Notes under the pieces: generated by a model
What the model was told of the DNA's origin: nothing
The model's database searches: none
Seen by the model: the letters and a program-made list of their open reading frames with translations, nothing else
Shown here: positions 27,228 through 48,558 of the stretch, piece after piece
Numbering within the stretch: position 1 is the stretch's first letter
Layout: every line of letters begins with the position of its first letter
NCBI RefSeq assembly: GCF_003691585.1
Contig: NZ_CP033169.1
Span: 1,302,001 to 1,366,000, forward strand
Direction of reading: 5' to 3'
Length of the DNA: 64,000 nt
Origin: Biomaibacter acetigenes
GTDB taxonomy: Bacteria > Bacillota > Thermosediminibacteria > Thermosediminibacterales > Tepidanaerobacteraceae
Made by a program: the position numbers and the translations under genes

Positions 27228-27440
27228 CACATTCCCATATATGCCTTTTTCACCATGTCGCTCTCCAGGAGTTCTTTTCCGGTGCCTTCGGCCACTATGC
27301 GGCCGGTCTGGAGCGCGTATCCCCTGCCGGCCATCTCCAGTGCCTCCTGGACCTTCTGTTCCACTAGTAGCACCGTCTAACCATGCCTGCTGATTTCTTT
27401 CAATATCTCCATAACCATGTCCACCATGGTGGGCATGTTA
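27227..27440 (-). pseudogene. livF: Relic of a branched-chain amino acid ABC transporter ATPase (LivF C-terminus)
   Basis: Minus-strand translation from about 27437 gives NMPTMVDMVMEILKEISRHG, a stop, then TVLLVEQKVQEALEMAGRGYALQTGRIVAEGTGKELL (27229-27376 region) ending AYMGM. This is the D-loop/H-loop end of LivF. The N-terminal two thirds, with Walker A and signature motif, are gone, and an in-frame TAG interrupts what is left. The 5' side ends where the Rpn-like gene begins on the opposite strand, marking a recombination junction. Confidence 0.8.
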
Positions 27441-28408
27441 AAAAGAACTTCAAAGAAGACGCGAAAATAGAACAATTAAACCGGGAATACATAAGACTGG
27501 ACAAAACCACCGCCATAGCCGACACCGTCTTGAGCATAGAAATAAACGAACAAAAAACAAAATACCACATAGAATTCCAGACCATCAACGACAGGACATT
27601 AATAATCCGCATGATAGATTACGGATTTAGAATAGCCATAGACAACCTGGACTACAGCAAAATAAAACCAGATGAAGAAATAACCGTAGAATTCCCATCT
27701 CAAATCATCATATTTCTAAAACACAACGAATCCATACCTGACGAACTAAACCTCACAATAAAAATGCCGTATACAGAACAGAAAATAAAATACATAGTGC
27801 CTACCTTCAAAATCTGGAAACACGATCCGGACTATTATAAAAGGCAAAAGCTCTACATCATGCTCCCGCTGCGGATAATAAACTTAAGCGAAGAACTCGA
27901 AAACCTGAAGAAAAGAAAATTTCAGGAAGAAGAAAGAACAAAACTTCAAAACGAATACCGCAGGAAAATAACAGAAGTAATAGAGAGCATAATCGAAGAA
28001 TTAAAAGATGCCCTTAAAACAAACGACCTTATCATCGAAGAATGCAACAAAATACTTCTGGAACTTAGCACCCTGGCCGGGGAACTATTCAGCGAAGAGT
28101 TAAAAGACATTGAGCAGGAGGTGAATGAAATGGCAAAAATGATAATCGACCCTGAGATATACAGAAGAGGGTTTGAAGAAGGCTTGGAAAAAAGACTGGA
28201 AAAAGGCATTGAAAAAGGCATTGAAAGAGGTGTAGGGAAAGGTATGGCTGAGACCATAATCAGGCAACTGTGCAAAAAACTTGGAGAGCTACCCTCTGAG
28301 TATAAAGAAAGAATCCTGTGTCAGGATAGGCCGACTCTTGAATTGATTGCGGAAAATATTTTTGACATTGAGTCTCTGAGCGAGCTCGACAGATTCTTGA
28401 AGCAGTGA
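27383..28408 (+). CDS. Rpn/YhgA-like PD-(D/E)XK nuclease-transposase family protein, N-terminus rearranged
   Basis: 341 codons. Rpn proteins are recombination-promoting DNA nucleases of the PD-(D/E)XK fold, often scattered as mobile-like copies. The catalytic pieces are present: AIADTVLSIEI (Asp) and YHIEFQT (E-x-Q). The C-terminus has the usual repeated tail (RRGFEEGLEKRLEKGIEKG...) and a PSEYKERI segment. The first 20 or so residues are translated from the antisense strand of the livF relic, so the native start is lost, and the first in-frame ATG of native sequence lies after the catalytic core begins. It may therefore be expressed as a chimera or not at all. Confidence 0.72.
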   Translation: MPADFFQYLHNHVHHGGHVKKNFKEDAKIEQLNREYIRLDKTTAIADTVLSIEINEQKTKYHIEFQTINDRTLIIRMIDYGFRIAIDNLDYSKIKPDEEITVEFPSQIIIFLKHNESIPDELNLTIKMPYTEQKIKYIVPTFKIWKHDPDYYKRQKLYIMLPLRIINLSEELENLKKRKFQEEERTKLQNEYRRKITEVIESIIEELKDALKTNDLIIEECNKILLELSTLAGELFSEELKDIEQEVNEMAKMIIDPEIYRRGFEEGLEKRLEKGIEKGIERGVGKGMAETIIRQLCKKLGELPSEYKERILCQDRPTLELIAENIFDIESLSELDRFLKQ

Positions 28409-28644: not shown

Positions 28645-29115
28645 ATGTTGAAGGCACTTGACATACAAAATGCCATAAAAATATTGCCCCATAAATATTA
28701 CAAGCTCATTCTGGTTGTGGGGCCGAAAGAGCGGCAAATTTCCGGCATATTGAAGAAAATGTCTTTAGAATTCGGCTATGACTACATCAATTTAAATCTG
28801 AAGCTTTCCGAAAAGCTCATTCGCATTCCCTTTGATGAGCGCTGTTTTTATGTAGAGGATTATGTGAACGAGATTGTTGAGTCAAATCACGGCAGCCTGT
28901 TGATATTGGATAACATCGAAATTCTTTTCGAAAAGCATCTTAAGATAGACCCTTTGCTTTTGCTGAAGAACTTGAGCCGCTATAAAGCCTGTATAGCCCA
29001 CTGGAACGGCAAAGTGGAGGACGGGCACCTTATATATGCGGTTCCCCAGCATCCTGATTTTGTAAAATACAGAATGGATGGACATGATTACATTGTGATC
29101 GATACAGCGCAGTAA
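28645..29115 (+). CDS. brxF: BREX type 3 protein BrxF
   Basis: 156 residues, small ATPase-like protein that opens type 3 BREX operons. It shows a degenerate P-loop region (LILVVGPKERQISGIL, lacking a clean GKT) and a Walker B-like strand LLILDNIEILFE (near residue 92). BREX systems block phage DNA replication and methylate host DNA. The call rests on size, position immediately upstream of a DUF6079/BrxC gene, and my recollection of the family. ATG 28645 has only a weak ribosome-binding site. Confidence 0.82.
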   Translation: MLKALDIQNAIKILPHKYYKLILVVGPKERQISGILKKMSLEFGYDYINLNLKLSEKLIRIPFDERCFYVEDYVNEIVESNHGSLLILDNIEILFEKHLKIDPLLLLKNLSRYKACIAHWNGKVEDGHLIYAVPQHPDFVKYRMDGHDYIVIDTAQ

Positions 29116-29304
29116 AAACAAGGTAACATCGATTGAGAAATTTAAAGAAGTCATTTAAGAGCAATAATCGAGCGTATCCCAGCCGGCAGCAGGGCATGTG
29201 CTTAAAATACTGAAAGAGCAGGTGCCAGGCCGTCTCCGACAGGAAGCTGCTTTTTTACCTGGAATCATCTTTAATAATACCAGCCGAAGAAAAGGGGGAT
29301 AACT
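29116..29304 (+). other. brxF-brxC spacer
   Basis: 189 bases, unusually long for this operon. No ORF above 57 codons with a plausible start, and no clear promoter or terminator seen. GAAAAGGGGG directly precedes the brxC GTG. Confidence 0.4.
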
Positions 29305-32300
29305 GTGAAATACAAAGACCTGGTAAATTTTGATCCGGTGGAAAGCATCATAAAGCTTACCGATACCAACAAAAAGCAGGATGCGGAAAGGTTTGTCAGA
29401 ACTTACGTCATGTCCGACAGTATGGCGGATGCCCTCATAAACATTGTCTTACCTCAGCTTCAATTTGAAAATACTGTAGACAACAAGGGCATTTTCATAG
29501 TCGGAAATTACGGCACCGGCAAATCCCATCTGATGTCAGTCATTTCCGCCATAGCTGAAAATAAAGACATGCTGGATTTGATGAAAAACGAGCGGTTTAA
29601 AAAAGAAGCGGAGTGTATTGCCGGAAAATTTGAGGTGTTGAGGTTTGAGATAGGCGCTTCCAAGATGGATCTTAGAGATATAGTGACCAGGGAAATAGAA
29701 AAGGACCTTTACAAAAGAGAAATAGAATATAAATTTCCATCCATGGAGGAGGTATCCAATACCACCGATTCCCTGGTGGAGATGATGAATTTATTTCAGG
29801 AAAAGTATCCCGACAAAGGATACCTTATCGTGGTCGACGAGCTTCTAGATTATTTGAGGCATTTGTCGGAACAGAAGATGGTCCTGGCGCTCACCTTTCT
29901 GAGAGAAATGGGCGAAGTCAGCAAGGTCACCCGCATACGCTTTATGGCGGGCCTGCAGGAATCCCTGTTTGAAAGCGGGCAGTTTTCTTTCGTGGCGGAT
30001 TCTTTAAACAGGGTGAAAGCCCGATTTGAACAGATCATGATAAAAAAGCAGGACATATCCTATGTAGTATCAGAAAGGATCCTCAAGAAAAACGAAAGGC
30101 AGAAGGCATGGATAAGGGAGCATCTGGTGAAGTTCGGCCCCCTCTATAAAAATCTTGCTGATAGGCTGGAGGAATATGTTAACCTGTTTCCCATTCATCC
30201 TTCGTACATAGAAACTTTTGAGAAGGTTTACATAGCCGAAAAAAGGGAAGTGTTGAAGACCATATCTATCACCATAAAAAATCTGCTGGAAAAAGAGGTG
30301 CCCGAAGACGATACCGGCATCATTTCCTACGATTCATACTGGGATTTCATAAAAGATAATCCCGGCATGAAATCCGATGCGGATATAAGGGAAGTCATAG
30401 AAAAAAGCGGCGTGCTGGAAAGCCTTATAGAACATTCGTATACCAGACCTCAGTATAAACCCATGGCAAAGAGGATAATCTACGCCCTGAGCGTAAAAAG
30501 ACTTACCACGGGAGACATCCATGCTCCTCTGGGGCTTACGGTAGACAATATGAAGGACGACCTTTTTCTCTATACCCCGATGCCCGAGATGGAAGAAAGC
30601 TTTTTAAAGACCACCATTGAAACGGTGATGAAAGAAATATTGAAGACCGTCAGCGGCCAGTTTATAACATATAACCGGGACAATGAGCAGTATTATCTGG
30701 ACCTGAAAAAAGACATAGACTATGATGCAAAGATTCAGGCCAGGGCCGACTTTATTGAAGATGAGGACATCAATAAATACTATTACAGCATCATATTAAA
30801 GGCCATGGAATGGGAGAGGCCCGAGTATGTGGGAGGCCGCAGAATATACCAGTATGAGCTGATATGGGAAGAAAGAAACGTGGAGAGGCGGGGATATCTT
30901 TTCATGGGGCTGCCCAATGAAAGGACCACCGCCCAGCCGCCCAGGGATTTTTATATATATTTCCTGCCGCCTTACGGGAATAACAGGCATGACGGCATGA
31001 CACAGCCGGATGAGGTTTACTTCGAATTTGTAAACAGGGATGAAAAAGTTGATGAATATATTAGGATGTACGCCGCCACCATGTCCATGTACGACATGTC
31101 TTCGGGCAGCAGTAAATCCGTATACTACGATAAAGCCATGGCGTATCAGAAAAAAGCCGTAGAATGGATACTGGAGCACATAAAAGAGTGCTTTGAGGTG
31201 CGGTATGACGGCGAATGCAGGACCATCCTCTACTGGCTGAAAAGCAGGGCAGCCGTGGAGGTCACCATCAAGGATTATATAGACATGACCGCATCCACCT
31301 GCCTTTCTCCGTATTTTGCCGAAAAATACCCCGACTACCCCAGATTCTCCGTCTTAGTGACGCAGAAAAATACGCGGGAGTTGTTCAAATCCGCCATAAA
31401 TTATATAGCCGGTAAAAAGACTGATATGGGGGCTAAAGTCCTGGATTCACTGGGGCTTCTGGATGAAGATAAAAACATATCTCCCGAACATTCCAAATAT
31501 GCAAAGCATTTTATAAACCTCATAAATAAATTGCCGGAACAACAGGTACTGAACCGGGACGACATCTTTGAGTGGGTAAATACGGATGAAGAACTCGACA
31601 AAAAGTTTAAGCTGGAGCCCTGGTGGGTTGTTGTGATAATGGCTTCCTTAATCTATAGCGGAGATATAACTTTGACCACCTCCGCAAAAAAATACGACGC
31701 CACCATGCTGGAAGAGATGGCGGCAGATAATACTGCCGACCTTCTACAATTTAAACACTGCCAGCGCCCGATGGATATCCCCATCGAGGCATTAAAGTGC
31801 CTTTTTAAATATCTGGAGCTACCTCCGGGACAGATTACAAATCCCAACACCAGGGCCGCTGCCGTTGAAATGATGCTGAAAAGAATAGATGATATCATAG
31901 GTAAAATTATTGATGCCCAGAAATTCATGTATGGGGAGATAAATATATGGGGCAAACCTGTTATAAATGAGAGTAAAAAACAAAATTACAAAGAAGCTTT
32001 ATTAAGATTCAGAGATTTTCTCGATTCCTTGAAAAAATACAACACCCCGGCAAAACTTAAAAATTTCAAACCCACATCCGGAGAAATAGAAGATTACTTT
32101 AAAGCCTTGGAAATCATAAAAGAATTAAACATTCTAAAATCCTTCAAGCAGGAGATTGACCCGTATGCCTCTTATCTTGCCAGTGCCGAACTGGTGCTCA
32201 AAGATGAAGCCTGGGGCAAAAAGGTCGCATATATAAAGCAGGAAATCGAAAGTATCTTAAAAGAACCCGGCGGCATAGATGATGATATTTCCCGAAGGCT

Positions 32301-32976
32301 TACCAGCAGGTTGAGACAGATAAAGGATGAGTATATACAAAAATACATGGAGCTCCACAAAAAGCATAGACTGGACCTTTCAGGCGATGAGCGCAAAAAA
32401 AAGATATTAAACGGCAATATAAAGCAAAACCTTGAAAAGCTCACAGGCATAAAAGATATAATCCCGCAGGGAAAATTTAAGGAACAGATAGATAGATTAT
32501 CATCGCTGAAAGTCTGCTTTGCCCTCATCGAAGACAATATGAAAAATACGGCGGCATGCCCCTACTGCAACTTTAATCCTGCGGACGGCGAAAGAGCTGT
32601 GTTTGGGGAGCTGGATTCAATAGAGGATGCCCTGGATAAACTCTATGAGGAATGGAAAAATATCCTGGTAAATTTCATAGACGACCCCAGAGTCAGCGAG
32701 AACATAAGCTTTTTAAGGGAAGAACAGCAAAAGGCATTAAAACCATTAATCAACAGCAGGACTCTTCCCGAAAAAGTCGATGCCGTGTTTGTTTCAGCCA
32801 TAAATGACCTTTCCAGAGGCCTGGAAAAAATTGAAGTGTCGGCCAGGGACATAGAAAGCAAGGTGTTCGGAAGCGGTCCTTCCACCCTGGAGGATTTAAA
32901 AAAGAGGTTTATGGATTTTTTAGATGAAATATCAAGAGGCAGGGATGCCGGCAAGATAAGAATAATACTGAAATGA
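29305..32976 (+). CDS. brxC: BREX type 3 ATPase BrxC (DUF6079)
   Basis: 1223 residues, full length for the family. The AAA+-type ATP site is intact: Walker A GNYGTGKSH (about residues 68-76) and Walker B YLIVVDELLDYL (about 173-184). A long helical remainder and a lone CPYC pair near residue 1086 follow. BrxC is essential for BREX defence and is thought to be the central motor/ATPase of the complex. Start is GTG 29305. It is followed after 13 bases by the methyltransferase. Codon and base use look similar to the rest of the operon. Confidence 0.9.
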   Translation: MKYKDLVNFDPVESIIKLTDTNKKQDAERFVRTYVMSDSMADALINIVLPQLQFENTVDNKGIFIVGNYGTGKSHLMSVISAIAENKDMLDLMKNERFKKEAECIAGKFEVLRFEIGASKMDLRDIVTREIEKDLYKREIEYKFPSMEEVSNTTDSLVEMMNLFQEKYPDKGYLIVVDELLDYLRHLSEQKMVLALTFLREMGEVSKVTRIRFMAGLQESLFESGQFSFVADSLNRVKARFEQIMIKKQDISYVVSERILKKNERQKAWIREHLVKFGPLYKNLADRLEEYVNLFPIHPSYIETFEKVYIAEKREVLKTISITIKNLLEKEVPEDDTGIISYDSYWDFIKDNPGMKSDADIREVIEKSGVLESLIEHSYTRPQYKPMAKRIIYALSVKRLTTGDIHAPLGLTVDNMKDDLFLYTPMPEMEESFLKTTIETVMKEILKTVSGQFITYNRDNEQYYLDLKKDIDYDAKIQARADFIEDEDINKYYYSIILKAMEWERPEYVGGRRIYQYELIWEERNVERRGYLFMGLPNERTTAQPPRDFYIYFLPPYGNNRHDGMTQPDEVYFEFVNRDEKVDEYIRMYAATMSMYDMSSGSSKSVYYDKAMAYQKKAVEWILEHIKECFEVRYDGECRTILYWLKSRAAVEVTIKDYIDMTASTCLSPYFAEKYPDYPRFSVLVTQKNTRELFKSAINYIAGKKTDMGAKVLDSLGLLDEDKNISPEHSKYAKHFINLINKLPEQQVLNRDDIFEWVNTDEELDKKFKLEPWWVVVIMASLIYSGDITLTTSAKKYDATMLEEMAADNTADLLQFKHCQRPMDIPIEALKCLFKYLELPPGQITNPNTRAAAVEMMLKRIDDIIGKIIDAQKFMYGEINIWGKPVINESKKQNYKEALLRFRDFLDSLKKYNTPAKLKNFKPTSGEIEDYFKALEIIKELNILKSFKQEIDPYASYLASAELVLKDEAWGKKVAYIKQEIESILKEPGGIDDDISRRLTSRLRQIKDEYIQKYMELHKKHRLDLSGDERKKKILNGNIKQNLEKLTGIKDIIPQGKFKEQIDRLSSLKVCFALIEDNMKNTAACPYCNFNPADGERAVFGELDSIEDALDKLYEEWKNILVNFIDDPRVSENISFLREEQQKALKPLINSRTLPEKVDAVFVSAINDLSRGLEKIEVSARDIESKVFGSGPSTLEDLKKRFMDFLDEISRGRDAGKIRIILK

Positions 32977-32989
32977 TGGAGGCAGCACG

Positions 32990-35571
32990 ATGAAGCTCAC
33001 GAAAGAAATACTGGACAGCGTAAGACATATGGAGGGATTCCCGAAAGGCGCGGATGAGGATATAATAGCCCTCTCCGACCCTCCCCATTATACAGCGTGC
33101 CCCAATCCTTTTATAAATGATTTTATAGAAAAATACGGGACTCCTTATGATGAGGAAAAGGACGATTACCACTGTGAACCCTATACCGCCGATGTATCGG
33201 AAGGCAAAAATGACCCCATATACAACGCCCATTCCTATCATACAAAGGTCCCCCATAAGGCGATAATGAGGTATATCCTCCACTACACCAAGCCCGGAGA
33301 CATAGTGTTCGACGGCTTTTGCGGCACCGGCATGACCGGAGTGGCGGCTAGCATGTGCGGCAACCCCGATAAGGATTTCAAATTGAAAATTGAAGAAGAA
33401 GCCAGAAAGGAAGGCAAAAAGGTGGAGTGGGGGGCCAGAAGGGCCATCCTGTGCGACCTTTCCCCTGCCGCCACCTTCATAGCATACAACTACAACACCC
33501 CGGTGGATGTGGAACAATTTGAAAAAGAGGCAAGGCGCATCCTGGAGGAAGTGGAAAAAGAGTGCGGCTGGATGTATGAAACCATCCACACCATAGACGG
33601 CGTGCCCCAGACCGATATCCATGGAAAGCCCGTAAAGGGCAGGATAAATTATACCGTCTGGTCCGATGTTTTCATCTGCCCCAACTGCAGCGGGGAAATC
33701 ATCTTCTGGGATGCCGCGGTGGACAAAGAATCCGGCAAAGTGCTGGACGACTTTAACTGCCCCCACTGCAATGCAAAGGTGAACAAGAAAAACCTGGAAA
33801 AAGCCTGGGTAACAAAATATGATAAAGCCATAAATGAGACCATAAGGCAGGTAAAACAGGTGCCCGTCCTCATAAACTATTCCGTGGGCAGGTCAAGATA
33901 CGAAAAGACCCCCGATGAATTTGACATAAAATTGATTGAAAAGATAGAGGACATGGATATTCCATACTGGTATCCGACGGACAGGATGCCAGAAGGATAT
34001 AATACGGAACAACCGAAAAAGTCTCATGGTGTAACACATGTGCATCATTTTATACGAAGAGGAATATTTCAGTTTTATCATGGTTATTTAATAAAATATC
34101 AAAAATTAATAATAAAATTGTTCAGAAAAAAATATTATTTGCATTAAATAATGTACAACAAAGACATTGTAAATTAAATGCTTTTAGATTTAATGTATCA
34201 TTTCCTTCAAATATTACCTCTGGGACACTGTATATGCCTTCATTGATAAAGGAAAATAATATTTTTAGCCAATTAGAAAATAAAATTTTACGTAGACTTA
34301 AACCTATATTCATTTCTATTAAAAGAGAAAGAGAAACAACATTAGTTTCTACAAATGATGCTGGAAATTTGTTATTAAAGAATAACTTCATAGACTATAT
34401 TTTTACCGATCCCCCTTTTGGTGACAACCTTATGTATTCAGAGCTGAATTTTCTCTGGGAAGCATGGCTTAAAGTCTTTACCAACAATAAATCTGAAGCT
34501 GTTGTAAATAATGTTCAGCATAAAGGCTTGCCCGAGTATAAAGAATTAATGGAAAAGTGTTTTTGCGAGATGTACCGCATTTTAAAACCAGGAAGATGGA
34601 TGACGGTGGAATTTCACAACTCCCGGAATAGTATTTTTAATATTTTACAAGAATCTATCCTTAAGGCCGGATTCATAATTGTTAATGTAAAAACCTTAGA
34701 TAAAAAACAAGGTAGTTTTAAGCAGGTTACAACTACTACTGCAGTAAAACAGGACTTAGTCATTTCCGCATATAAACCCAAAGATTCCTTTATCCAGGGC
34801 TTCCTTAAAAAAGCCGGTACCGAGGAAGGCGCCTGGGATTATATCCGTCAGCATTTGGAAAAACTTCCGATTACAGTGGAAAACAAAGGTCAGTTGGAGG
34901 TCATCCCGGAAAGACAGGCATATCTTCTATATGATAGCATGATCACCTTTCATATCCAGAAGGGCGCATCCATACCCATGGGAGCTGCGGATTTTTATGC
35001 GGGATTGGAGCAGAGATTTCCAAAGCGAGACGGTATGTATTTTTTGCTCAGTCAAGTAAATATATACGATCAAAAGAGGATGGAACTGGAGCTAAATGAC
35101 CAGATTTCCTTATTAATTCTTGATGAAAAGAGTGCCATTCAGTGGCTCAGAAAAGAGCTGGGGAAAAAACCCCAGACCTATCAGGAAATCCAACCGAAAT
35201 TTCTTCAGAAACTTCATCAGATAAAATACGAAAAACTGCCTGAGCTTATGGATCTTCTGGAGGAAAATTTCCTGCAGGATGAGCAGGGAAGATGGTACGT
35301 GCCGGATATAAGCAAGCAGTCGGACCTGGAAAAACTAAGGGAAAAGAATCTTCTCAAGGAATTTGAGGAATATAAAAACAGCACCGGAAGGCTGAAGGTC
35401 TTCCGGACCGAGGCTGTAAGGGCGGGGTTTAAAAAGTGCTGGAAGGATAAAGATTACGCCACCATAGTGAAAATAGGCGACAGGCTTCCGGAAAGCATCC
35501 TTCAGGAAGACAGCAGTATATTGATGTATTATGACAACGCCCTGACCAGGATGGGTGAGGGGCATGTTTGA
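32990..35571 (+). CDS. pglX: BREX DNA methyltransferase PglX type (pglXI), single frameshift
   Basis: About 860 residues after repair. The SAM-binding motif I is FDGFCGTGMTGVAA (near residue 106). A zinc ribbon (CPNCSGEI...CPHCNAKV) lies between residues 225 and 265. The catalytic motif IV DPPF is at about 34408, and a C-terminal domain with QAYLLYDSM... follows. In BREX this enzyme marks host DNA, usually as N6-methyladenine in an asymmetric site, and is needed for defence. The first frame breaks at 34048-34051 (four Ts where five keep the frame: HHFYTKRN); the second frame then runs open from there to 35571. Without repair motif I and motif IV lie on separate proteins. Confidence 0.9.
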
Positions 35572-35589
35572 TGCGGGATGGAGTAGCAA

Positions 35590-37521
35590 ATGATTGAAGA
35601 TGTGATTGTCCAGAGGTTGCCTTTAAATCAGAATAATTTCATATTGCTCTATGACCCTGATGATATGGTGGCCGGGGAAAAGATTGTATCCCGGATAAGT
35701 AGCTGCGGTTACACTCTCATTAATTATGAAGACCCGGATATGTTCAGGTTTTATTTCGAACAAATTTTAAATAAAGGTACAGACATCGATGAAGCAGGCG
35801 GGGATAAGATTGTACTGAGGCTTACACGAAATACGTATGTACCTTACGATATTCAGTCCATATTTCAGGAAATAAGGATAACCATAAAAGACATCTTTCC
35901 CGGGCTGAGCTACACTGTTTTAAAGGAAATGGGCAGCGGTATTCTGGGTGATATATACGATGCTTATAAAAATTACCCGGGTCTGAATCTGGGCGACGGT
36001 GAAACCATGGATTTCATACTTGAAAACGTCTACGGCATATTTCCGGATACCATACACACATACGAAGATTTGATAAAAACATTGATAAAAATATTTTACT
36101 GCGGGAAAGAATTGCCTGAAATCATCCTGAATTACCTTTCAAAGAGATTCGAGACACATCCGGATTTTATAAACTTCCCCGTTAAAAAAATTTTATCCGG
36201 AAAAGAATCCTTCTTTTATTATCTACAGCAGCAATGGGAACTTTATATAAAATCTTTTTTTGAAAATAATATCAGATCCGATGTGAATTTTGGCCATGCG
36301 GATATCAGGGTGTATATGGACAACCTTTTTTCAGAAGGGTATTTGACCCCCGTCCATTGCCATGAAATCCAGAGGATTCCAGTCTGGGCCCGGGATGGGG
36401 TAATCTATCAAGAGATTCTCGATAAAAAGAAAAACTATGAAGAATTGATGGAAAAGGTCAGGGCGTCCTTGGAAAAGGTGGAATCTTTTAAAGACTGGTG
36501 GGGCATAGCTTCCCGGTGGGCTGAATTATTGGTGATATTCAGTGACAGCAATATGAAAAAGGAGCTGGATGTTAAGGAATTTGAAAAAACTTCTTTACAT
36601 CTGGAAAGGACTTTTAAGGAGTGGCTTCTGGAAAATTACGGTTTGCTTTCGTCTTTATCGTATACAAGTTTTCCGGTGATGGTTCATCATATTCCCTGGC
36701 ACATCCATTACAGGATGCAAAAAGAAAACTTTAAAAAAGTGGCCCTCATAGTTTTTGACGGCATGTCTCTGGATAACTGGATAATAATAAAAAGGCATCT
36801 GAATCAGAGTAAAACATGGATACTGGAGGAAAACCTATCTTTTGCATGGATCCCCACCATGACCTATATATCGCGCCAGGCCATCTTTTCGGGGCAGGTG
36901 CCGGCGTACTTTGCCGATACGTTTTTTTCTACGGATAATGATGAAACTCACTGGAAGAGGTTTTGGATGGATAAGGGCTTTCGGGCCGATGCCATATATT
37001 ACATGAGAAATATTAAGCATTTTGACGAAAACGGCCTTGAAGAACTGGTCAAAAACCAGAAAGCCAGGATACTGGGCCTTGTGGTAAACATGATAGATGA
37101 CATGGTGCACGGCGGACAGCTGCTGCTTTCGGGGATGCATCAGGATATAAAACTCTGGCTCAGAGAAGGAGGGCTGGAGCGCTTTTTGCTGAAGCTTTCC
37201 GCCAGCGGATATGAAATATATATAACCTCGGACCATGGAAACGTCAGCGCCGTAGGCCAGGGCAGGATTCAGGAAGGTCTCGGTGTGGATCAGGCGGAAA
37301 GCAGGGTCAGAATATACGAAAAATCCAAAAGCCATGAAAATGCCGTTCAAACATTCAGGGCCTTTAAATGGAAAGCTTACGGCTTACCGCGGGATTATAA
37401 TTATATCATCTGCGATGATAACTTTGCTTACGGTAAAATTAACGAAAAAATGATATGTCATGGCGGAACATCCGTTGAGGAAGTCATTGTTCCATTCGTC
37501 CATGTAAGAAAAGGAGCATAA
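35590..37521 (+). CDS. pglZ: BREX phosphatase-like protein PglZ
   Basis: 643 residues. PglZ is the hallmark BREX protein with an alkaline-phosphatase fold. Metal-binding motifs of that fold are visible: LIVFDGMSLDNW (near residue 386), NMIDDMVHGG, ITSDHGNVSA (near residue 551), and the C-terminal HGGTSVEEVIVPFVHV. The N-terminal half is the family-specific region. It starts 18 bases after the methyltransferase stop; in other type 3 systems a large helicase gene (brxHII) lies in between, and here there is no room for one. Confidence 0.93.
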   Translation: MIEDVIVQRLPLNQNNFILLYDPDDMVAGEKIVSRISSCGYTLINYEDPDMFRFYFEQILNKGTDIDEAGGDKIVLRLTRNTYVPYDIQSIFQEIRITIKDIFPGLSYTVLKEMGSGILGDIYDAYKNYPGLNLGDGETMDFILENVYGIFPDTIHTYEDLIKTLIKIFYCGKELPEIILNYLSKRFETHPDFINFPVKKILSGKESFFYYLQQQWELYIKSFFENNIRSDVNFGHADIRVYMDNLFSEGYLTPVHCHEIQRIPVWARDGVIYQEILDKKKNYEELMEKVRASLEKVESFKDWWGIASRWAELLVIFSDSNMKKELDVKEFEKTSLHLERTFKEWLLENYGLLSSLSYTSFPVMVHHIPWHIHYRMQKENFKKVALIVFDGMSLDNWIIIKRHLNQSKTWILEENLSFAWIPTMTYISRQAIFSGQVPAYFADTFFSTDNDETHWKRFWMDKGFRADAIYYMRNIKHFDENGLEELVKNQKARILGLVVNMIDDMVHGGQLLLSGMHQDIKLWLREGGLERFLLKLSASGYEIYITSDHGNVSAVGQGRIQEGLGVDQAESRVRIYEKSKSHENAVQTFRAFKWKAYGLPRDYNYIICDDNFAYGKINEKMICHGGTSVEEVIVPFVHVRKGA

Positions 37522-37522
37522 C

Positions 37523-38233
37523 ATGATGCAGACAGTGGGATTTAATCGATTTATAAAAAGAGAATGGCTGAATTTCACGGCTTTTCTCGCAGGCCGGGAA
37601 AAGGATGAAAAAATCATAAGAAAAAATCTAAATGAATATCTTGAAAAGGAAACAAAGGCCGAAATCACCCGCCAAAAAACCCTGGTGGAGCTTTTAAGGA
37701 TCTGGGTAAACGTGCCCGCATCTCATGAGGATCTGAAGGAAAAGGCTCTGGATTTGTTTGAGAAAGTGCCGGAAGATGAGAAAATGTTATTTCACTGGTC
37801 CATGATAATGCTGGCCTTCCCCATATTTATCGATGTGGCATCATCATTGGGAAAGATTTTCAGCCTTCAGGACCGGGTGTCTTTAAAAATCCTGGAAAAG
37901 CGCATATTTGAAAAGTGGGGAGAAAGGAGCACCGTAAAATACGCGCTTCCAAAGATAGTAGGCTCCATGGTCGAATGGGGCGTCATCACCAGGGCAAAGG
38001 TGGGAGAATACACTAAAGCCCAGACAATAGAGATTAAAAATAAGGATTGTAAGCTCTTTTTCATAAACTGCTATATGCAAGCTTTGGAGAAAGATTATCT
38101 AAGATTCATTGAAGCAAACAATCTCTCCGCCGCCTTTCCTTTTAAATTAAACCTGGGGCTCGATGACTTTAATAATTCAAATACCCTATCATTGAGCAGG
38201 ATGGGAAGTGATGTGGTGATTATTAAAAGATAA
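37523..38233 (+). CDS. BREX operon protein in the brxA position (BrxA-like, DUF1819?)
   Basis: 236 residues, soluble, mostly helical. A winged-helix-like segment (KWGERSTVKYALPKIVGSMVEWGVI, about positions 37912-37985) could bind DNA, which would fit BrxA, a DNA-binding BREX protein of about 200 residues that closes type 3 operons. I rely on position and general build; no diagnostic motif is visible. The ATG is 2 bases from the pglZ stop with AAAAGGAG upstream, so it is surely part of the operon. Confidence 0.6.
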   Translation: MMQTVGFNRFIKREWLNFTAFLAGREKDEKIIRKNLNEYLEKETKAEITRQKTLVELLRIWVNVPASHEDLKEKALDLFEKVPEDEKMLFHWSMIMLAFPIFIDVASSLGKIFSLQDRVSLKILEKRIFEKWGERSTVKYALPKIVGSMVEWGVITRAKVGEYTKAQTIEIKNKDCKLFFINCYMQALEKDYLRFIEANNLSAAFPFKLNLGLDDFNNSNTLSLSRMGSDVVIIKR

Positions 38234-38295: not shown

Positions 38296-39363
38296 ATGCT
38301 AAATATCCAGCCTCACGTTATTGAACAAATTCGTAAAAAAGTAAATCGACCGGAGGGAAGCGTTGAACTTATAAGCAATGTTGGGGAATTATTCAACCCT
38401 AACGTTGGTGAAGGTATTATATTGGAGATTTCTTCTGGAGCGCAATATTTTCTGGTTAAAAGGGATAGCGAAATGCAAATGATTTATTATTATTCTTCTC
38501 CTGGTTCTGGTACTTGGGTAGCAAAAATTGATCTAAAGAAAGTTCAGCGATGTGATAAAGCTTATTGGGGATTTACATGGTCTCCACAAGAAACGAAGTT
38601 ATTTATTGGTCCATGGATTAAAGGAGGCAAATTAGTGATTTCTAAAGGTGTACCCTCTGAAAAGCAATTTAGAGTTGGAAGGGATGGAAGTATAATACAA
38701 ATAGGTGATGAAGGAGCAGAAGTTACAGGAGTAAGAATGTTTTTTGACGGTAAACCTGTCCTTGAACCAACTGCTATTGAAACATGGCAGAACACTATTC
38801 AAGGAGTTAGGTTATTACAAAAAGGAAAATCAGATGAAGGTTATATTTTTGAAGTATTAATTTGCAATTTGGTAATAGCAACACTTGTTACGGGCTTTGA
38901 GACATATTGCAAGACAAGATTTATTGAACTTGAGAAGGAAGGTATTAAACCAAATCTAGAAAACTTGATAAGTATGGTATTTTCACAAAGAGAGCTAGAC
39001 ATCGGAGTATTAGAAATTTTAAAAAAAAGAAGCCGTATCAGAACAAAAGACTTTTTAGAAAAAATCGCTATTAATAAGATTAACTTTCAAAATTACGATG
39101 AATGTAAAAAGGCATTCAATAAAACATATGGTCTAAAATTTAGCGAAATTGGTCTTAACTCAAATGAATTATCATTTCTCCGACGACTTATACAATATAG
39201 GCATCGCATTATCCATGTTTCACCATTAATTATAATGTTGAATCAAGGCCAAGTTCCTCCTGAAGAACCTGTTTTTGCTGGTAATGATTTAGCCGAAAAA
39301 GCAGTTAATTGTTTTGATAAATTCGTAAGCAATTTCCACGAAAGTACGCTGAAACTTAGATAA
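38296..39363 (+). CDS. HEPN-motif protein following the BREX operon, unknown family
   Basis: 355 residues. The N-terminal 170 residues are beta-rich with no family I know (GTWVAKIDLKKVQ...GDEGAEVTGVRMFFDGKP). The C-terminal half is helical and contains YRHRIIHVSP (near residue 301), matching the R-x4-H signature of HEPN ribonucleases such as RiboL-PSP, preceded by a helix with TGFETYCKTRF. HEPN nucleases are frequent effectors in defence islands. AGGGGAGAG lies 5 bases before the ATG. It has a 62-base gap to the BREX operon and may be co-transcribed or separate. Confidence 0.6.
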   Translation: MLNIQPHVIEQIRKKVNRPEGSVELISNVGELFNPNVGEGIILEISSGAQYFLVKRDSEMQMIYYYSSPGSGTWVAKIDLKKVQRCDKAYWGFTWSPQETKLFIGPWIKGGKLVISKGVPSEKQFRVGRDGSIIQIGDEGAEVTGVRMFFDGKPVLEPTAIETWQNTIQGVRLLQKGKSDEGYIFEVLICNLVIATLVTGFETYCKTRFIELEKEGIKPNLENLISMVFSQRELDIGVLEILKKRSRIRTKDFLEKIAINKINFQNYDECKKAFNKTYGLKFSEIGLNSNELSFLRRLIQYRHRIIHVSPLIIMLNQGQVPPEEPVFAGNDLAEKAVNCFDKFVSNFHESTLKLR

Positions 39364-39505: not shown

Positions 39506-40420
39506 TTGCCTATTCCTGATTATGAAACCATAATGCTGCCTTTGTTAAAATTTGCTGAAGATAATAAAGAGCATTCGTTGAGGGAAGCAATAGAATACCT
39601 GGCAAAGTATTTTAATCTTACTGATGAAGAAAGAAAAGAGCTACTGCCCAGCGGCAGACAATTTATTTTTGACAACAGGGTAAGCTGGGCATGTACATAC
39701 TTGAAAAAAGCAGTTCTTCTGGAGTCGGTAAAAAGAGGTTGTTTTAAAATAACTGAGCGTGGGATTGATGTATTAAAACGCGATATAAAGAAAATAACAC
39801 CCGCCTTTTTAGAGGAATTCCAGGAATTCAGAGATTTCAAAGCAGTTTCTCGATCACAAGTCTATAACAAACGAAATGATAACAAACAGATTGATGGAGA
39901 TGAGACTCCCGAAGAGAAACTTGAAAATGCATATCAAATAATAAGAAAAAATCTTGCGCAGGAACTGATCCAAAAGGTAATGAAATGTTCGCCTTCGTTT
40001 TTTGAAACACTTGTCATTGATTTATTAGTTAGCATGGGATATGGAGGCTCCCGTATTGATGCGGGGAAAGCCATCGGTAAAAGTGGAGATGAAGGAATAG
40101 ACGGCATTATAAAGGAAGATAGATTGGGATTAGACACAATATATATTCAGGCCAAGCGATGGGAAAACCAGGTAGGTCGTCCGGAAATTCAGAAATTTGC
40201 CGGAGCTTTACTCGGTCAGAAAGCCAAAAAAGGTATTTTTATCACAACCTCGAGCTTTACAAAAGAAGCGATAAATTATGCCGAAAGCATAGAAAATAAG
40301 ATTGTTCTCATTGATGGGGAGCAACTGGCAAATTTCATGATAGATTATAATATAGGAGTTTCGAGGGTGGGGGTCTATGAAGTAAAAAAAATCGATAGTG
40401 ACTATTTTGCAGATGAGTGA
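39506..40420 (+). CDS. mrr: Mrr-type restriction endonuclease (type IV, modification-dependent)
   Basis: 304 residues. An N-terminal winged-helix Mrr_N domain (PLLKFAEDNKEHSLREAIEYLA..., residues 8-90) is followed by a linker and the Mrr catalytic domain (residues 150-275). The PD-(D/E)XK core is intact: GYGGSRIDAGKAIGKSGDEGIDGII (Asp) and YIQAKRW (Q-x-K). Such enzymes cut DNA carrying foreign methylation or hydroxymethylation, complementing BREX, which acts on unmodified DNA. The start is TTG 39506 with AAGGAGTGAAG upstream. It lies in the same direction as the BREX genes. Confidence 0.92.
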   Translation: MPIPDYETIMLPLLKFAEDNKEHSLREAIEYLAKYFNLTDEERKELLPSGRQFIFDNRVSWACTYLKKAVLLESVKRGCFKITERGIDVLKRDIKKITPAFLEEFQEFRDFKAVSRSQVYNKRNDNKQIDGDETPEEKLENAYQIIRKNLAQELIQKVMKCSPSFFETLVIDLLVSMGYGGSRIDAGKAIGKSGDEGIDGIIKEDRLGLDTIYIQAKRWENQVGRPEIQKFAGALLGQKAKKGIFITTSSFTKEAINYAESIENKIVLIDGEQLANFMIDYNIGVSRVGVYEVKKIDSDYFADE

Positions 40421-40507
40421 TGAAAAAATAACCAGTAAGAAATGAAAAATAATCTAAATTTGGAGATAGAAAAGGAAACTATAAAGTTATCATATGGAGG
40501 GTTTCAT

Positions 40508-40690
40508 ATGGACAAATATAGGAAAGGTTATTTAATACATGAAACTTCGGATGACCATTACTGCCTTTGTAAAATTCTAAATGAGTACAACAGCGAAGAA
40601 GAAGCAGAAAAAGATTTGATTGATCTTCTTACACATCATAAAACAGAAAAACAAATATTGAAAGAATATAGTAAAAAAGAAGTGTATTAA
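40508..40690 (+). CDS. Small hypothetical protein
   Basis: 60 residues from ATG 40508, chosen because GGAGGG lies 6 bases before it. The sequence (DKYRKGYLIHETSDDHYCLCKI...SEEEAEKDLIDLLTHH) is charged and soluble with no family I recognise. It follows mrr by 88 bases. Confidence 0.5.
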   Translation: MDKYRKGYLIHETSDDHYCLCKILNEYNSEEEAEKDLIDLLTHHKTEKQILKEYSKKEVY

Positions 40691-40719
40691 TATTTATCAC
40701 ATGCCCTCGATGGAGTAGT

Positions 40720-41007
40720 TTGGTGAGCCTGAGGGCCCAATTTTTTATCCCAATTGTGGGTTCCCAGAAGGAAAATGTATATAAGATTTTGAATGGCGAG
40801 GATGTTAATATAGAGGACCCTCTGGCGGATATTGATGTCGGTATAGTTTTCTCATATGACATCAATGATGTTGACGGCAGATATAGATTGTATGGTGATA
40901 TTTATAATGACCTTGTAGAAATATTTCCGAGATTGGATTTGGTTTTTTTGCAGGAGAAACATTCGGTATTTCAGACAGAGGCTATTTTAGGCATGTATAT
41001 ACGCTGA
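40720..41007 (+). pseudogene. Nucleotidyltransferase-like (MNT antitoxin type) remnant
   Basis: About 95 codons. DPLADIDVGIVF and [24 protein letters not shown] resemble the MNT nucleotidyltransferase antitoxins that pair with HEPN toxins, including the D-x-D metal pair. The expected GSxARG loop is damaged (IVGSQKENVY) and the protein stops early. No HEPN toxin partner follows. Likely decayed. Confidence 0.5.
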
Positions 41008-41065
41008 ATCTGGATATGGGAATTGGCATTTAATAAATAAAATATTATTCTGGAGGAGATTAAAA

Positions 41066-41385
41066 ATGATATTGACGACAACCCCTGGTGTTGAAGGAAA
41101 GAAAATCGTGGAGTATAAGGGGATAGTTTTCGGAGAGGTGATCTCAGGAGTGAACTTTATTAAGATTTTGCCGCAGGTCTTTCAAACATTTTTGGCGGCC
41201 GGTCAAAGTCCTATGAGGGAGAGCTGCTCGAAGCCAGAGAAGCGGCATTGAAAGAAATGGAGGCCAGAGCGGCATCTCTCGGAGCCAATGCTGTAATCGG
41301 CGTGGATGTTGACTATGAGGTGCTGGGGCAAAATGGCAACATGCTCATGGTGACTGCATCCGGCACGGCGGTGGTAATTGAGTAA
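41066..41385 (+). pseudogene. YbjQ (DUF74) family protein, frameshifted
   Basis: The 107-residue YbjQ protein forms pentameric rings and is a putative metal-binding protein. The N-terminal [27 protein letters not shown] is normal. One missing G at about 41164 (AAGATTTT for AAGGATTTT) shifts the frame; restored, the protein continues [21 protein letters not shown]... and ends at 41385 with [10 protein letters not shown], exactly the family length. GGAGGAG precedes the ATG. It could be intact if this is a sequencing error. Confidence 0.85.
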
Positions 41386-41547
41386 ATTAATGCAGTATGA
41401 GGGGAAATGAAAATATCAATATAAAGTTTAAGTTTAACGAGAGTTGTTGATGAACAGTTTTTGAAAAGATATAATGTAAGTGTAGGTGATTAACGTTTAT
41501 TTGAGAATCAAAAGTGATAATAAAGCTTAATATGCGAGGTGGTAAAA

Positions 41548-41778
41548 GTGATAAATTCTCAGATAAAGGAAAATATACTCAGAGATTTAAATAAATTACC
41601 AATCGAACTACAAAAAAAGGTTTATGATTTTATCAACGCATTATTATTAACATTACCCAAGGGTAATTCTCCAAAAAACGTGTTATCGTTTTCGGGAATT
41701 ATGAACAAGCAGGATGCAAAAGAGATCAGCACAATAATTGAGGAAGGTTGCGAAAAAATAGATGAAGATGAATGGTAG
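41548..41778 (+). CDS. Antitoxin of a VapBC-like pair (DUF2281-like)
   Basis: 76 residues from GTG 41548 (GAGGTGG 6 bases upstream; the GTG at 41539 overlaps that site). NKLPIELQKKVYDFINALLL is the pattern of DUF2281 antitoxins that neutralise adjacent PIN-domain toxins. The stop overlaps the start of the PIN gene by several codons, the usual coupling. Confidence 0.7.
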   Translation: MINSQIKENILRDLNKLPIELQKKVYDFINALLLTLPKGNSPKNVLSFSGIMNKQDAKEISTIIEEGCEKIDEDEW

Positions 41779-42156
41779 GATATTGCTTGATACTAATATT
41801 GTAATTGCAGTTTTTTCTGGAGAAGAAAGCATTCAGCGTTACATTGAAAAAGCTAATGAAATTTTTATTCCTGTTATTGTGATAGGTGAACTTTATTTTG
41901 GCGCCTATAATTCAATGAATATGGAACGCAATATCGAAAAAATTGACGCTTTGTTGCTAACTCAACTATTCTTAGTTGTGATGCTTATACAGCAAAAATA
42001 TATGGTAAAATAAAAGGCGATTTGAAGAAAAAAGGTAAACCTATACCAGAAAATGATATATGGATAGCTGCTTTGGCTGATCAGTATGGTCTATTATTAG
42101 TAACTAAAGACTCGCATTTTAAAAATATTGATGATTTTTCTGTAGAACTATTGTAA
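41762..42156 (+). pseudogene. PIN-domain toxin (VapC), frameshifted
   Basis: RNase toxin of a type II pair. The first acidic residue is in ILLDTNIVIAVFSG; a second conserved block follows in VIGELYFGA. A one-base slip near 41957-41960 breaks the frame. In the other frame SCDAYTAKIYGKIKGDLKKKGKPIPENDIWIAALADQYGLLLVTKDSHF carries the remaining catalytic acids (NDIWIAA, TKD). Total length after repair is about 132 residues, normal for VapC. Confidence 0.78.
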
Positions 42157-42346
42157 AGATTTTATGAAGGAAATATATTGTAGCCCATTCCCAAGCAATG
42201 CCAATGCACGTAATTATAATGAAAGAGCAAATAATGCTATAAGATTAATAAGGAAAGTTATGGGAAACAGCCTGGAGTAATATTTCTCTGACTAGAAAAG
42301 ATAAAAAATTACCTGGGGAATTTGAAATATAAATTGCAATTTTTCT

Positions 42347-42730
42347 TATAAGAAAGCGGAAATTACTGACGATACCCAGATGACTTTATTCACTGCCGAG
42401 GGTTTGCTTCGGGCTGAAAGCGGAGGCAGGAAAAAAGGCATTTGTCATATCCCCTCTGTTGTCTATAACGCATATATTAGGTGGTTGCATACTCAGGGTT
42501 ATCCTAAAAACAAGGATCACGACCCGATTTATGATGGATGGCTTATAGGGGAAAAAGAACTTTATGCCCGAAGAGGGCCGGGGAATACATGCCTATCGGC
42601 TTTATTAAGCGGCAAGATGGGAACGATGGAACGGCCGATAAACAACAGCAAGGGCTGCGGTGGGGTCATGAGGGTAGCACCGGTGGGATTGTTATACGGC
42701 AAAGATGAAGCCTTTGTAATCTCGATCTAG
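42347..42730 (+). pseudogene. ADP-ribosylglycohydrolase family fragment
   Basis: The frame reads [22 protein letters not shown] then [14 protein letters not shown] and [26 protein letters not shown] and SKGCGGVMR are the metal/ADP-ribose-binding blocks of DraG-like hydrolases, which remove ADP-ribose from proteins or other substrates. The N-terminus and about half of the C-terminal part are missing, so this is a truncated relic. Confidence 0.75.
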
Positions 42731-42947
42731 TCGTACTGTTAGGCGAGAAGTCCCTTAAAGTTCTTGAGTTTGAAGAAAGATACACCGACGTTGGAGGTTC
42801 GACGATATTGAATAAGAATGGAAGGAATTGCGGAGCAAAACTAAAATAAATTTTAATTAGGCGTACATTTCAACATATTACAAACGATTGTAATATTATC
42901 CTGTAAAAGCAAACATGATATCGTATAATTTATTTGGAGGGGTTGAT

Positions 42948-43204
42948 ATGGCGATAAATAAACTGATACAAACCACTGTCAGTCATAGGCATCAGACCGT
43001 TGTTCCTACATCTATAAGAAAAAATATAATATTGAAGAGGGTTCAAAGATTATCTGGGTGGATAAAGGAGAAAAAATAGAAATTATTCCGTTAAAATCAT
43101 CTCTAAAGGAACCTTTCCGTGGAGCGGGCCGCGGTACCGGATTGTTGGAAGAACTTTTAGTTTATAGAGCAATTGAGAGAGAGCATGAACGGAAAAATGA
43201 ATGA
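42948..43204 (+). pseudogene. AbrB/MazE-type antitoxin, frameshifted
   Basis: GGAGGGG precedes the ATG. LIQTTVSHRHQTVVPTSIRKK is the swapped-hairpin AbrB DNA-binding fold. The A6 run at 43019-43024 needs seven As to continue YNIEEGSKIIWVDKGEKIEIIPL and end at 43204. Restored length is 85 residues. The stop overlaps the next PIN gene, forming a toxin-antitoxin pair. Confidence 0.78.
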
Positions 43205-43636
43205 AGATGATAAAGATGTACAAAAATTTGTTTTTGATACAAGTGCCATACTCACATATTATCAAGACGAGGAAGGTTCGGACGTAATAGAAGAATTATT
43301 GGAAAAATCAAAAAGAGGCGAAGCAAAAATATATATATCTTCAATGTCTATCTTTGAACTGGCTTATATAACTATGGCAAAAAAAGCGAAGATAGAGCTA
43401 TTAAACTAATATCTGAGGTAAGGCAGCTTGAGCTTGAAGAGGTATGGCTGGAGGAAAATATTTTGTTTAAAGCCGCAGAAATAAAATCTAAATGTAATGT
43501 GAGCGTGATTAGATTCTTTTATAGCAGCTCTTGCAAGCACTATGAACGCGACTTTGGTAGACAAAGACCCGGAGTTTGAAAAACTTTCTCCTGAAATAAA
43601 TCGCATTCCTCTTAAGTATAAAGAGAGAAAAAGTAA
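43197..43636 (+). pseudogene. PIN-domain toxin, two frameshifts
   Basis: Start ATG 43197 overlaps the antitoxin stop. FVFDTSAILTYYQDEEGSDVIEELL holds the first catalytic Asp, and SSMSIFELAYI the conserved Glu. The frame breaks in an A7 run at 43379-43385 (eight expected) and again near 43510 (one extra base), after which SFIAALASTMNATLVDKDPEFEKL gives the remaining acidic residues. The end at about 43636 assumes a third small correction in an A run. Confidence 0.7.
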
Positions 43637-43772
43637 TTTTTATATTACCGTTACTTTGGTTATTATGCTTGCTGGGATATGGCGGTTGAAGGATGTATAT
43701 GGGGTTGACTTAAATGGATGCAGGACATAAAATATACAGTATACAGAACATCTGCTAGAAAGGTTGAGAACT

Positions 43773-45428: not shown

Positions 45429-48400
45429 ATGATAAAGGCGCTCTCTGCAGCTTTTAGTGCAGTGAAAGGAATGGTCGTCATGATGCTGGAAAGATGCATA
45501 GATGTCTTGAAAAAGGGAAAGAGAGTCATATACATAGCTCCTTCTCGAGAGCTGGCGGAATACATAAGGCAGGAATTTATGACAGGATTCGGCGGGCTCA
45601 TAAACACCGATGTCATAGTCATTGATGAGCTGGAGCAAAATTGTGCCAGGGAATTTCTGGGGACGAGGAGAATCTTGCCGGAAGATACCGGTATTATGGT
45701 ATTAAAGGAAGTGATGAGGAACCTTGACCTAGAGGGGAAGCTTCATTTTTATAGGAAGGTTTATGCAAGATACGGTCTTTTGCAAGGCCTGCTTTCAACC
45801 ATAAAAAAAATAAAAAGGCAGGCCCTTTCCCCCAAGGAGTTATTAATAAAAGCTCAGGATACTGGTGATAATATCCTGATAAAAAAAGCAGAAAATCTTA
45901 CAGCCGTATTTGAAGCATATGACCGAAAACTTGAGGAACTCGGTTTTGTTGATATGGAAGATATGGCCCGTATAGCCATAGAAAATTCCGCAAGTTGTAC
46001 ATATCTTGAGGATGTGGAACTCATAGCGGTGGACGGCTATATCAATCTTGACAGGATAGATGTTAAGCTTCTAGAAAGCATTGTACAAAATAGATATATA
46101 AAGGTGATAGGTCATGTCCCTATGAACACGCCTTTTATCGACAGTTTCATAGAGGGTGAGATATATAAAGATTTTGCGAAAATAGGAGCGGAAATAGTAA
46201 AATATGACTTTTCCCGGGAAGGTTACTTTAAAAAGCTGGCAGCTTGCCTTTTTACCGGTGAAAGGCTAAAGGAGCCGCCTTCCGGTATCAGAGTCTTAAA
46301 CGCTCCGTGCGTTTCGGATGAAATAAGGCAGGCAGCAAAAATCATCAAGTCTCTTTTATATGAGAAAAAAACTACTTTAGAAAATATAGCGGTGATTACC
46401 GGGGATGTCCAGGGTTATCGGGATTATATAGCACAAATCTTTGAAGAGATGAACCTTCCCATGAGCATGGGAAAATATGTAAAACTTGCAGCCGTACCTT
46501 TGATAAGGGATCTTTTTCTCTTTTTTTCCAAAGGAGCGGAAGCGGTAAAAGACGGCATTACATTTGAAACACCTTACATGTCGGTGGATGCCTGCAGCGC
46601 TGATTCAGTCGGCATAGCACAAATACATGGGAGGATAAATATTACAGATAAGATCACATACTATGTTGAAGAATTGATAAATATAATCGATGGGCTGAGG
46701 ATCAAACAAAAGCTGAATGAATTGTACAGAAGCGGCAGGATCTCTTCAGATATATATGTAAGGGACTTAAAGGCATATATTTCACTGGTAGATATATTGA
46801 TTAAGATAAGGCAGGAATATGCGAATTTTGACATTCAAGTCAACTCTGAAGATTTCCTGGAACTTTTCAAGAGACATATACAGGAGGCCACCATCTCCTT
46901 GAAAGGAGGGAATCCTGCGGGCATAAAGATTTTAGACCCCGACCTTTTAAAAGGGACCTGTTATGATTACATTTTTTTCCTGGGTCTAAATGAAGGGGTC
47001 TTTCCAAAGGCTCCAATAAAGGCAGGAGTGTTTACTTCCAGGGAAAAACAACTTCTTGCAAAGCTTGGAGTAAATCTGGAAAGTCCGGGTTGGGAACATG
47101 CCAGAGAAAAGATAAGGTTTATCTTGAGTGTAGCATCGGCTAAAAAAAGCCTTTTTTTAAGTTACAGGACCGCCGATGAGGACGGAAGTTACATTATAAA
47201 ATCTCCCTTTCTGGAGGAGCTCATTTTTACTGCCGGTATTGATAAAGATTCCTCTGCTATAATGGACAAAAGGAGCATGAGGCAAAGGTTTTCCCCCGAT
47301 ATCGGTGATGCCTGGAGCCTGAATGAGGCCGCTGAAAAATTGATATTGGGAAGATTTGGGCAAATCACCGATACATCAGATAAAACAAGAGCAGAAACGT
47401 CAAAGGATAATATTGATAAAGCAGTTTCCAGGATATCGGGAGAGTCCTTTGACAATGCAGCGGCCCAACTTTCTGAAGAAACTCTGCCACCGATTACCGG
47501 CCTTTTTGAAAGTCTGAAAGAAAGAGCAGGGTGGCTTCGGTGGTAAAGCGGGCGCATGACATAGAAGAACAAAGGAATTCTCGAAGGTTTACAAATTACG
47601 ACGGCAGGATCGGCCCCGAAGGGGCCCGTAGGTTCGACGAAGACTATTGTTTTAGCCCCTCCCGGCTCAACAGTTTCATTTATTGCCCCTTCAAGTTTTT
47701 TGTGGAGCAGGTGCTCCAGGTCCGGGTAGAAGATGACGAAGATGTGGTGCGCGCAAGAGACAGGGGCAACCTTTACCATGCCATACTGAAAAGATATTAT
47801 GAAGGCTGCAAAGATGTGCATATCTTCGATGAGGAGAGGTTAAGGGAAAAGGCTGAAGGAGCCTTTAATGAGGCAGGGCTGACCGACGACGACATTGCGA
47901 CCTTCATGTATAAAGATGAGATACTGGAAGTCTTAAAGAGATTTTTGATAAAGGATGCCGCATATCTTTCAGGTTACAGTGAAGTTACAGGGAAGATGCT
48001 GCAGCCACATTTCCTGGAAAAGTCCTTTTTTGATGATGAGATATTTGACGGTTTAAAATTTTACGCCCGGGTGGACAGAGTGGACCTGGAATATGACGGT
48101 AACCGCCCCACCGGCAGGTTTATCATTTACGACTATAAGACAAAAAACAGCAAGAACCTGCGAAGATGCCTAGAAGATAGAGATCTTCAGCTCATCATTT
48201 ATTACCATCTGGTAAAAAAGGCCTTAATAAAGGATTTGGGTTTACCGGACCCCGAGTGCATAGCTCTTTTGTATTATAGTATTGAAGACGCCGGATTTGA
48301 GGGCATCATAGTGGATGAAGAAAGAAAAGCCTTGAGCAAGAACAGGGGAAATATGGATACTGTTTCCCGGAGCAATTTCGAGTTTGTGATGGACTATTTC

Positions 48401-48553: not shown

Positions 48554-48558
48554 TTTAT

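Follow-up and report, generated by a model that had tools for sequence, protein, structure and literature searches.

Whether a BREX type 3 system can persist without its helicase, and what it would then do, is the question raised by a locus in Biomaibacter acetigenes. The mechanism by which BREX blocks phages is unsettled, and in type 3 systems the helicase BrxHII is the presumed unwinding step. The locus occupies positions 28,645 to 38,233 of a 64,000-nucleotide stretch of contig NZ_CP033169.1 (hereafter the window), in which pglX and pglZ almost adjoin at the site where brxHII usually lies. In the following, G numbers denote sampled genomes and L numbers individual loci.

Gene content of the operon

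All genes of the operon lie on the forward strand and match type 3 family models. The first, brxF (28,645–29,115), encodes a 156-aa BREX-3 P-loop-like (iSTAND) protein (NF033453 BREX_3_BrxF, 162 bits at a cut-off of 50; PADLOC BrxF, 2.2e-58), and brxC (29,305–32,976) a DUF6079 ATPase of 1223 aa (PADLOC BrxC, 1722 bits; PF19557, 1411 bits over residues 1–1223) in which motif reading found the Walker A sequence GNYGTGKSH and Walker B both intact. The gene for the PglXI methyltransferase follows in two parts that both match PDLC02541: part 1 (32,990–34,147) carries the motif FDGFCGTGMTG and scores 634 bits against PADLOC PglXI (profile positions 38–385 of 919), and part 2 (34,234–35,571), in another frame, carries DPPF and scores 702 bits, with its best stretch at profile positions 443–792. 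Beyond an intergenic gap (35,572–35,589) are type 3 pglZ (35,590–37,521; 643 aa, active-site residues kept; NF033449 BREX_PglZ_3, 746 bits, cut-off 250) and brxA (37,523–38,233; 236 aa; PADLOC BrxA, PDLC02437, 2.1e-88). The first-pass annotation had recognised the order brxF-brxC-pglX-pglZ-brxA-like as BREX type 3, which the strong PADLOC and NCBIfam matches bear out, and had pointed to a missing brxHII; the gap indeed measures only 18 bases and has no similarity to brxHII.

BrxF, a BrxC of the DUF6079 kind, PglXI (its gene split), type 3 PglZ and BrxA are all present, and BrxHII was found neither in the operon nor in the genome. Judged by its gene content, the locus at 28,645–38,233 is a helicase-less BREX type 3 variant, not a canonical type 3 system. 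A DUF499-centred BREX-related (BR/Hma) identity was ruled out because the ATPase is DUF6079, with neither DUF499 nor a helicase, and so was DISARM: the operon holds no Drm helicases, and the broken DrmD-like gene that lies at 902 kb of the genome is part of a type III restriction-modification operon.

The complete genome (3,398,311 bases) was searched with the BrxHII profile PDLC02500, and no BrxHII was found; the best score was 121 bits, as against 914–1200 bits for true BrxHII proteins of G006, G017, G037 and G043 in the same profile search. The best match, at 902–904 kb, was rejected as BrxHII, being that same DrmD-like SNF2 gene. The operon that it heads with a broken frame (L067 7,167–14,302; genome 902–909 kb) continues with a type III methyltransferase and a restriction gene. 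A brxHII homologue elsewhere in the genome, which would have spoken against a reduced system, is therefore not what the profile search shows. Neither the 18-base gap of the window nor the longer ones of G004 and G001 yielded any brxHII remnant. Among the neighbouring genes scanned, the only clear helicase is an AddA-like UvrD/PDDEXK protein (48,550–52,020), as had been noted at first pass.

Flanking genes

Directly downstream of brxA lies a gene for a 355-aa HEPN-like protein (38,296–39,363, forward strand) with a conserved RHR(I/V)(I/V)H motif in the alignment. Its homologue in L052 matches PF18735 RiboL-PSP-HEPN at E 2.7e-4, which is under that model's cut-off. In the 398-genome sample described below, homologues stand directly 3' of brxA in G123, which is helicase-less, and in G060, whose contig ends in pglZ, and outside BREX in G245 and G395; none was found on plasmids. 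The structure model of the protein (mean pLDDT 68.7), which includes an N-terminal beta domain, had no match in the PDB at E 0.001. The next gene (39,506–40,420, forward strand) encodes a 304-aa Mrr-type restriction endonuclease (PF04471 and PF14338 above cut-off), and the same mrr gene follows brxA in G001. HEPN and PD-(D/E)XK nucleases adjoining BREX are described as backup effectors in a recent survey (PMC12839542), and the HEPN-like gene is a possible accessory effector.

Several short or apparently broken genes follow mrr (40,420–43,760), with an 83-aa PIN-domain (VapC-like) frame, a partial ADP-ribosylglycohydrolase and more fragments by eye. An AddB-like protein (45,429–48,553) is encoded as two overlapping frames of 705 aa (ADDB_N) and 340 aa (PDDEXK_1), either a natural split or a frame break. 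Upstream of brxF, an Rpn-like DUF4351 gene (27,383–28,408) has an orthologue in G001 and is shrunk to 80 aa in G004.

Helicase state across relatives

Loci were collected by BrxC searches of 60 relatives and type 3 PglZ searches of 398 genomes sampled from the phylum, and were read for gene order. One genome of the same family that BrxC matched, a MAG, bears the name Tepidanaerobacteraceae, which appears to be the family of the window. BrxHII lies between pglX and pglZ in 35 of the 49 scorable type 3 loci (L025, L028, L029 and L033 show brxHII occupying this junction) and is absent from 14: the window, G004, G006 (contig 98), G010, G012, G001, whose entry is a decayed locus, G123, G134 (contig 81), G070, G103, G143, G288, G335 and G106.

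The helicase-less genomes that were searched further differ in their BrxHII matches. In G006 and G134, a second BREX-3 locus bears BrxHII; a broken 149-bit BrxHII match was found in G335; and in G123, G288 and G106 no BrxHII match was found anywhere at E 1e-20. The matches in G000, G004, G010 and G012 are to generic SNF2 proteins only, at most 121 bits. In G010 and G006, brxA is followed by a gene of BrxHII size (917 aa), which was rejected as a helicase candidate, since it encodes a sigma-54-activator/PRD regulator. Replacement of the helicase does occur in a different clade, where G070, G103 and G143 carry a DrmD-like SNF2 gene 3' of brxA (PADLOC DrmD, 1058 bits in G070 and 1245 bits in G103). 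The suggestion at first pass that another protein might take over the helicase's role found no support for the window, whose BrxC is no longer or shorter than that of helicase-bearing loci.

Loci with a DrmD-like SNF2 after brxA in place of BrxHII (L070 12,348–14,717; L072 12,623–15,826; L073 662–3,865) come from three families and point to an apparent helicase exchange in BREX-3. In the helicase-bearing loci L025 (7,650–8,222), L048, L054, L064, L082 and L084, extra genes stand between pglX and brxHII, and this junction therefore seems to be a frequent site of insertion and deletion.

A tblastn search of BrxC against 72,556 plasmid records gave 7 matches. The conjugative plasmids NZ_CP091103.1 and CP063640.1 of Enterococcus faecium carry brxF-brxC-pglX-pglZ-brxA without a helicase; pglX and pglZ of NZ_CP091103.1 are 11 bases apart, and pglZ of CP063640.1 is interrupted by an IS256-family transposase gene. 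The helicase is present on the plasmids of Leisingera, Roseomonas and Roseicitreum. By BrxC, the E. faecium plasmids fall with the helicase-less G070/G103 clade. In the phylum sample, a short PglZ seemed to be linked to presence of the helicase; this association was discarded, as the E. faecium plasmids combine a short PglZ with no helicase.

History of helicase loss

A PglZ tree of 47 rows and a BrxC tree of 28 rows were built by quick searches, and the direction of change cannot be read from them alone. In both, the window, G004, G006, G010 and G012 form one clade within the same family, all helicase-less, with starred support of 100 (BrxC) and 96 (PglZ), and this five-locus clade is nested among helicase-bearing loci. 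The helicase state changes 7 times on the PglZ tree and 6 times on the BrxC tree, and on each of them at least 5 changes cannot be avoided given the starred branches. A private deletion in the window strain was rejected, as the other four members lack the helicase likewise. Close relatives that all carry brxHII, which would have marked the absence as a recent deletion, were thus not what was found; the helicase-less order is common to a same-family clade, in keeping with the reduced variant proposed at first pass.

Direction comes from deletion scars. In the pglX–pglZ gap of G123, the initial and final bases of brxHII survive together with 21 bases from its interior; they match the sisters G278 and G265, which retain brxHII and whose flanks are about 90–93% identical. 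G335 keeps a scar of the 3' end of brxHII. No scar was seen in the window clade. Because of the scars in G123 and G335, the direction is taken to be loss and not ancestral absence. On the combined evidence of trees and scars, helicase loss is old in the window's family and has been repeated several times elsewhere, and BrxHII therefore looks like a detachable part.

Maintenance and decay of the remaining genes

All genes in the window clade are under purifying selection, with dN/dS of 0.12–0.30 across genes between the window and G004 and of 0.0–0.37 across genes among pairs of G006, G010 and G012. All five genes are intact in G004, G006, G010 and G012, which belong to other genera of the family, and three of these four are separated from the window by about 0.7 changes per BrxC site. 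The residue-column check found the BrxC Walker motifs conserved, and the aligned helicase-less loci retain the PglZ residues PT.T, DG(M/L), SDHG, D..H and HGG (HGS in G143). Residues matching the catalytic Thr and His of PglZ are present in every helicase-less locus aligned, the window clade included; the kept residues should include the equivalents of T538 and H741 of E. fergusonii.

PglX is mostly 85–100% identical between close relatives outside its variable stretches, while identity falls from about 0.95 to 0.2–0.7 in a hypervariable centre (34,009–34,399, forward strand), the putative target-recognition domain. A second, shorter variable stretch near 34,580–34,760 appears in some pairs only. 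We read this variability as exchange of the target-recognition domain, a likely sign of a specificity subunit in use.

The copy in the window itself is probably off. Its pglX was recognised at first pass, and that identity stands, but a one-base frame break had been overlooked: the gene consists of two open frames of 385 and 445 codons, shifted at a run of T near 34,048 that reads T4 in the window and T5 or CT4 in relatives. Compared with the intact pglX of G004 (852 aa), the window is one base shorter in this run. The shift falls where the divergent centre of the protein begins; downstream of it, the other frame is by eye open into the second part, and the disruption looks like a single lesion. 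A comparison of the window with G001 over 17.6 kb found only occasional isolated single-base indels in genes. The break may be real or a sequencing error, and only in the latter case would the BREX copy of this genome be expected to work. If it is real, the system of this strain would be expected neither to methylate nor to restrict, judging from what deletion of pglX does in type I BREX (PMC12205998).

Decay also occurs in the window's genus: G001 has lost about 5.95 kb from inside brxF to inside pglX, and its pglZ is split. Two decayed BREX-3 remnants are found in G001 (L066 and L083), one of them at the orthologous site.

Discussion

We consider it most likely, with a probability of about 0.55, that the window lineage lost BrxHII long ago and has since maintained a five-gene form of BREX type 3 that still restricts phage. 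BrxF, BrxC, PglX, PglZ and BrxA would together form a modification and surveillance complex, in which the variable central domain of PglX would determine the target where PglX marks host DNA. Phage DNA that bears no such mark would trigger the PglZ nuclease and so be nicked without a dedicated helicase. Where other type 3 systems do have BrxHII, it would act as an enhancing module, not a required one.

The serious rival to retained restriction is that the five genes make up a methylation complex, that restriction went with the helicase and that what remains serves for epigenetic control or self-marking. In the type I BREX of Acinetobacter, methylation needs BrxA, BrxB, BrxC, PglZ and PglX, and BrxL is needed only for restriction (PMC9122589). 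BrxA, BrxF (a BrxB homologue), BrxC, PglX and PglZ would be the type 3 counterpart of these five, variable target recognition by PglX fits a modification system too, and the type I need for BrxL would by analogy predict that helicase-less loci have lost restriction, contrary to our preferred explanation. In the type I BREX of E. fergusonii, however, mutations in the PglZ nuclease spare methylation but cost about three logs of defence (PMC12205998). Residues that methylation does not need are nevertheless kept in all helicase-less lineages aligned, which, on the assumption that type I results can be applied to type 3, argues for retained restriction, since the nuclease serves defence and not methylation. 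We accordingly hold a pure modification system to be possible and restriction to be likelier, while counting against the latter that the active-site residues could persist for a reason other than restriction, that the window pglX is broken and that about 6 kb of the locus is gone from G001.

These last two lesions would also suit a decaying remnant, in which helicase loss was one step of degradation, followed by the break in pglX here and by the large deletion, split pglZ and second remnant locus of G001. Four relatives in other genera with five intact genes and low dN/dS make this improbable for the lineage, and it fits the window strain better. It is less probable still that another host SF2 or SF1 helicase acts in trans: the DrmD-like SNF2 genes after brxA in G070, G103 and G143 and the separate BrxHII-bearing loci of G006 and G134 offer precedents, but G000, G004, G010 and G012 have nothing beyond their generic SNF2 matches and G123, G288 and G106 no BrxHII match. 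That a downstream HEPN-like or Mrr gene took over the helicase's effector role, a stand-in of the kind proposed at first pass, is hardly credible. A HEPN-like gene does sit directly 3' of brxA in the window, in G123 and in G060, and such nucleases have been put forward as backup effectors (PMC12839542). Yet neither protein is a helicase, neither gene is beside BREX in the intact and helicase-less G004, G006, G010 and G012, the contig of G060 stops in pglZ, short of the helicase site, and 2 of 5 HEPN-like homologues lie outside BREX. With so few cases and absence from close relatives, the HEPN-like gene was rejected as a helicase substitute.

Beyond the window lineage, retained restriction would open a broader reading, which we put forward tentatively and at somewhat less than even odds: helicase-less type 3 BREX may be a separate functional class, long-stable and mobile on conjugative plasmids, whose five-gene complex excludes phage with PglZ alone. 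On this view, the helicase would be an add-on open to exchange, which can be lost or swapped for a DrmD-like helicase while the system persists. The repeated natural losses, with their scars and the kept PglZ active site, offer a ready comparison, which can show whether the helicase is required for restriction or merely improves it and whether nicking by PglZ alone suffices.

A helicase-less variant is partly anticipated by the 2026 survey, since it gives BrxHII in only 702 taxa (77%) of type 3 systems; in the parts of it consulted, we found no account of repeated loss, deletion scars or a stable helicase-less clade (PMC12839542). With canonical BREX type 3 (brxF-brxC-pglXI-brxHII-pglZ-brxA), the window shares all five components other than the helicase, arranged in the same order and matching the same family models, and differs in having no BrxHII at the junction or elsewhere in the genome. 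Type I BREX without BrxL resembles it as a core modification set minus a helicase-like component, but is an experimental deletion in a different type, in which methylation was kept and restriction lost (PMC9122589). The BREX-3 loci of G070, G103 and G143 likewise have no BrxHII between pglX and pglZ and, unlike the window, carry their DrmD-like SNF2 after brxA. The E. faecium plasmid form has the same five genes in the same order and a pglX–pglZ gap of only a few bases, whereas its BrxC is about 38% identical to that of the window and its PglZ is shorter (487 aa).
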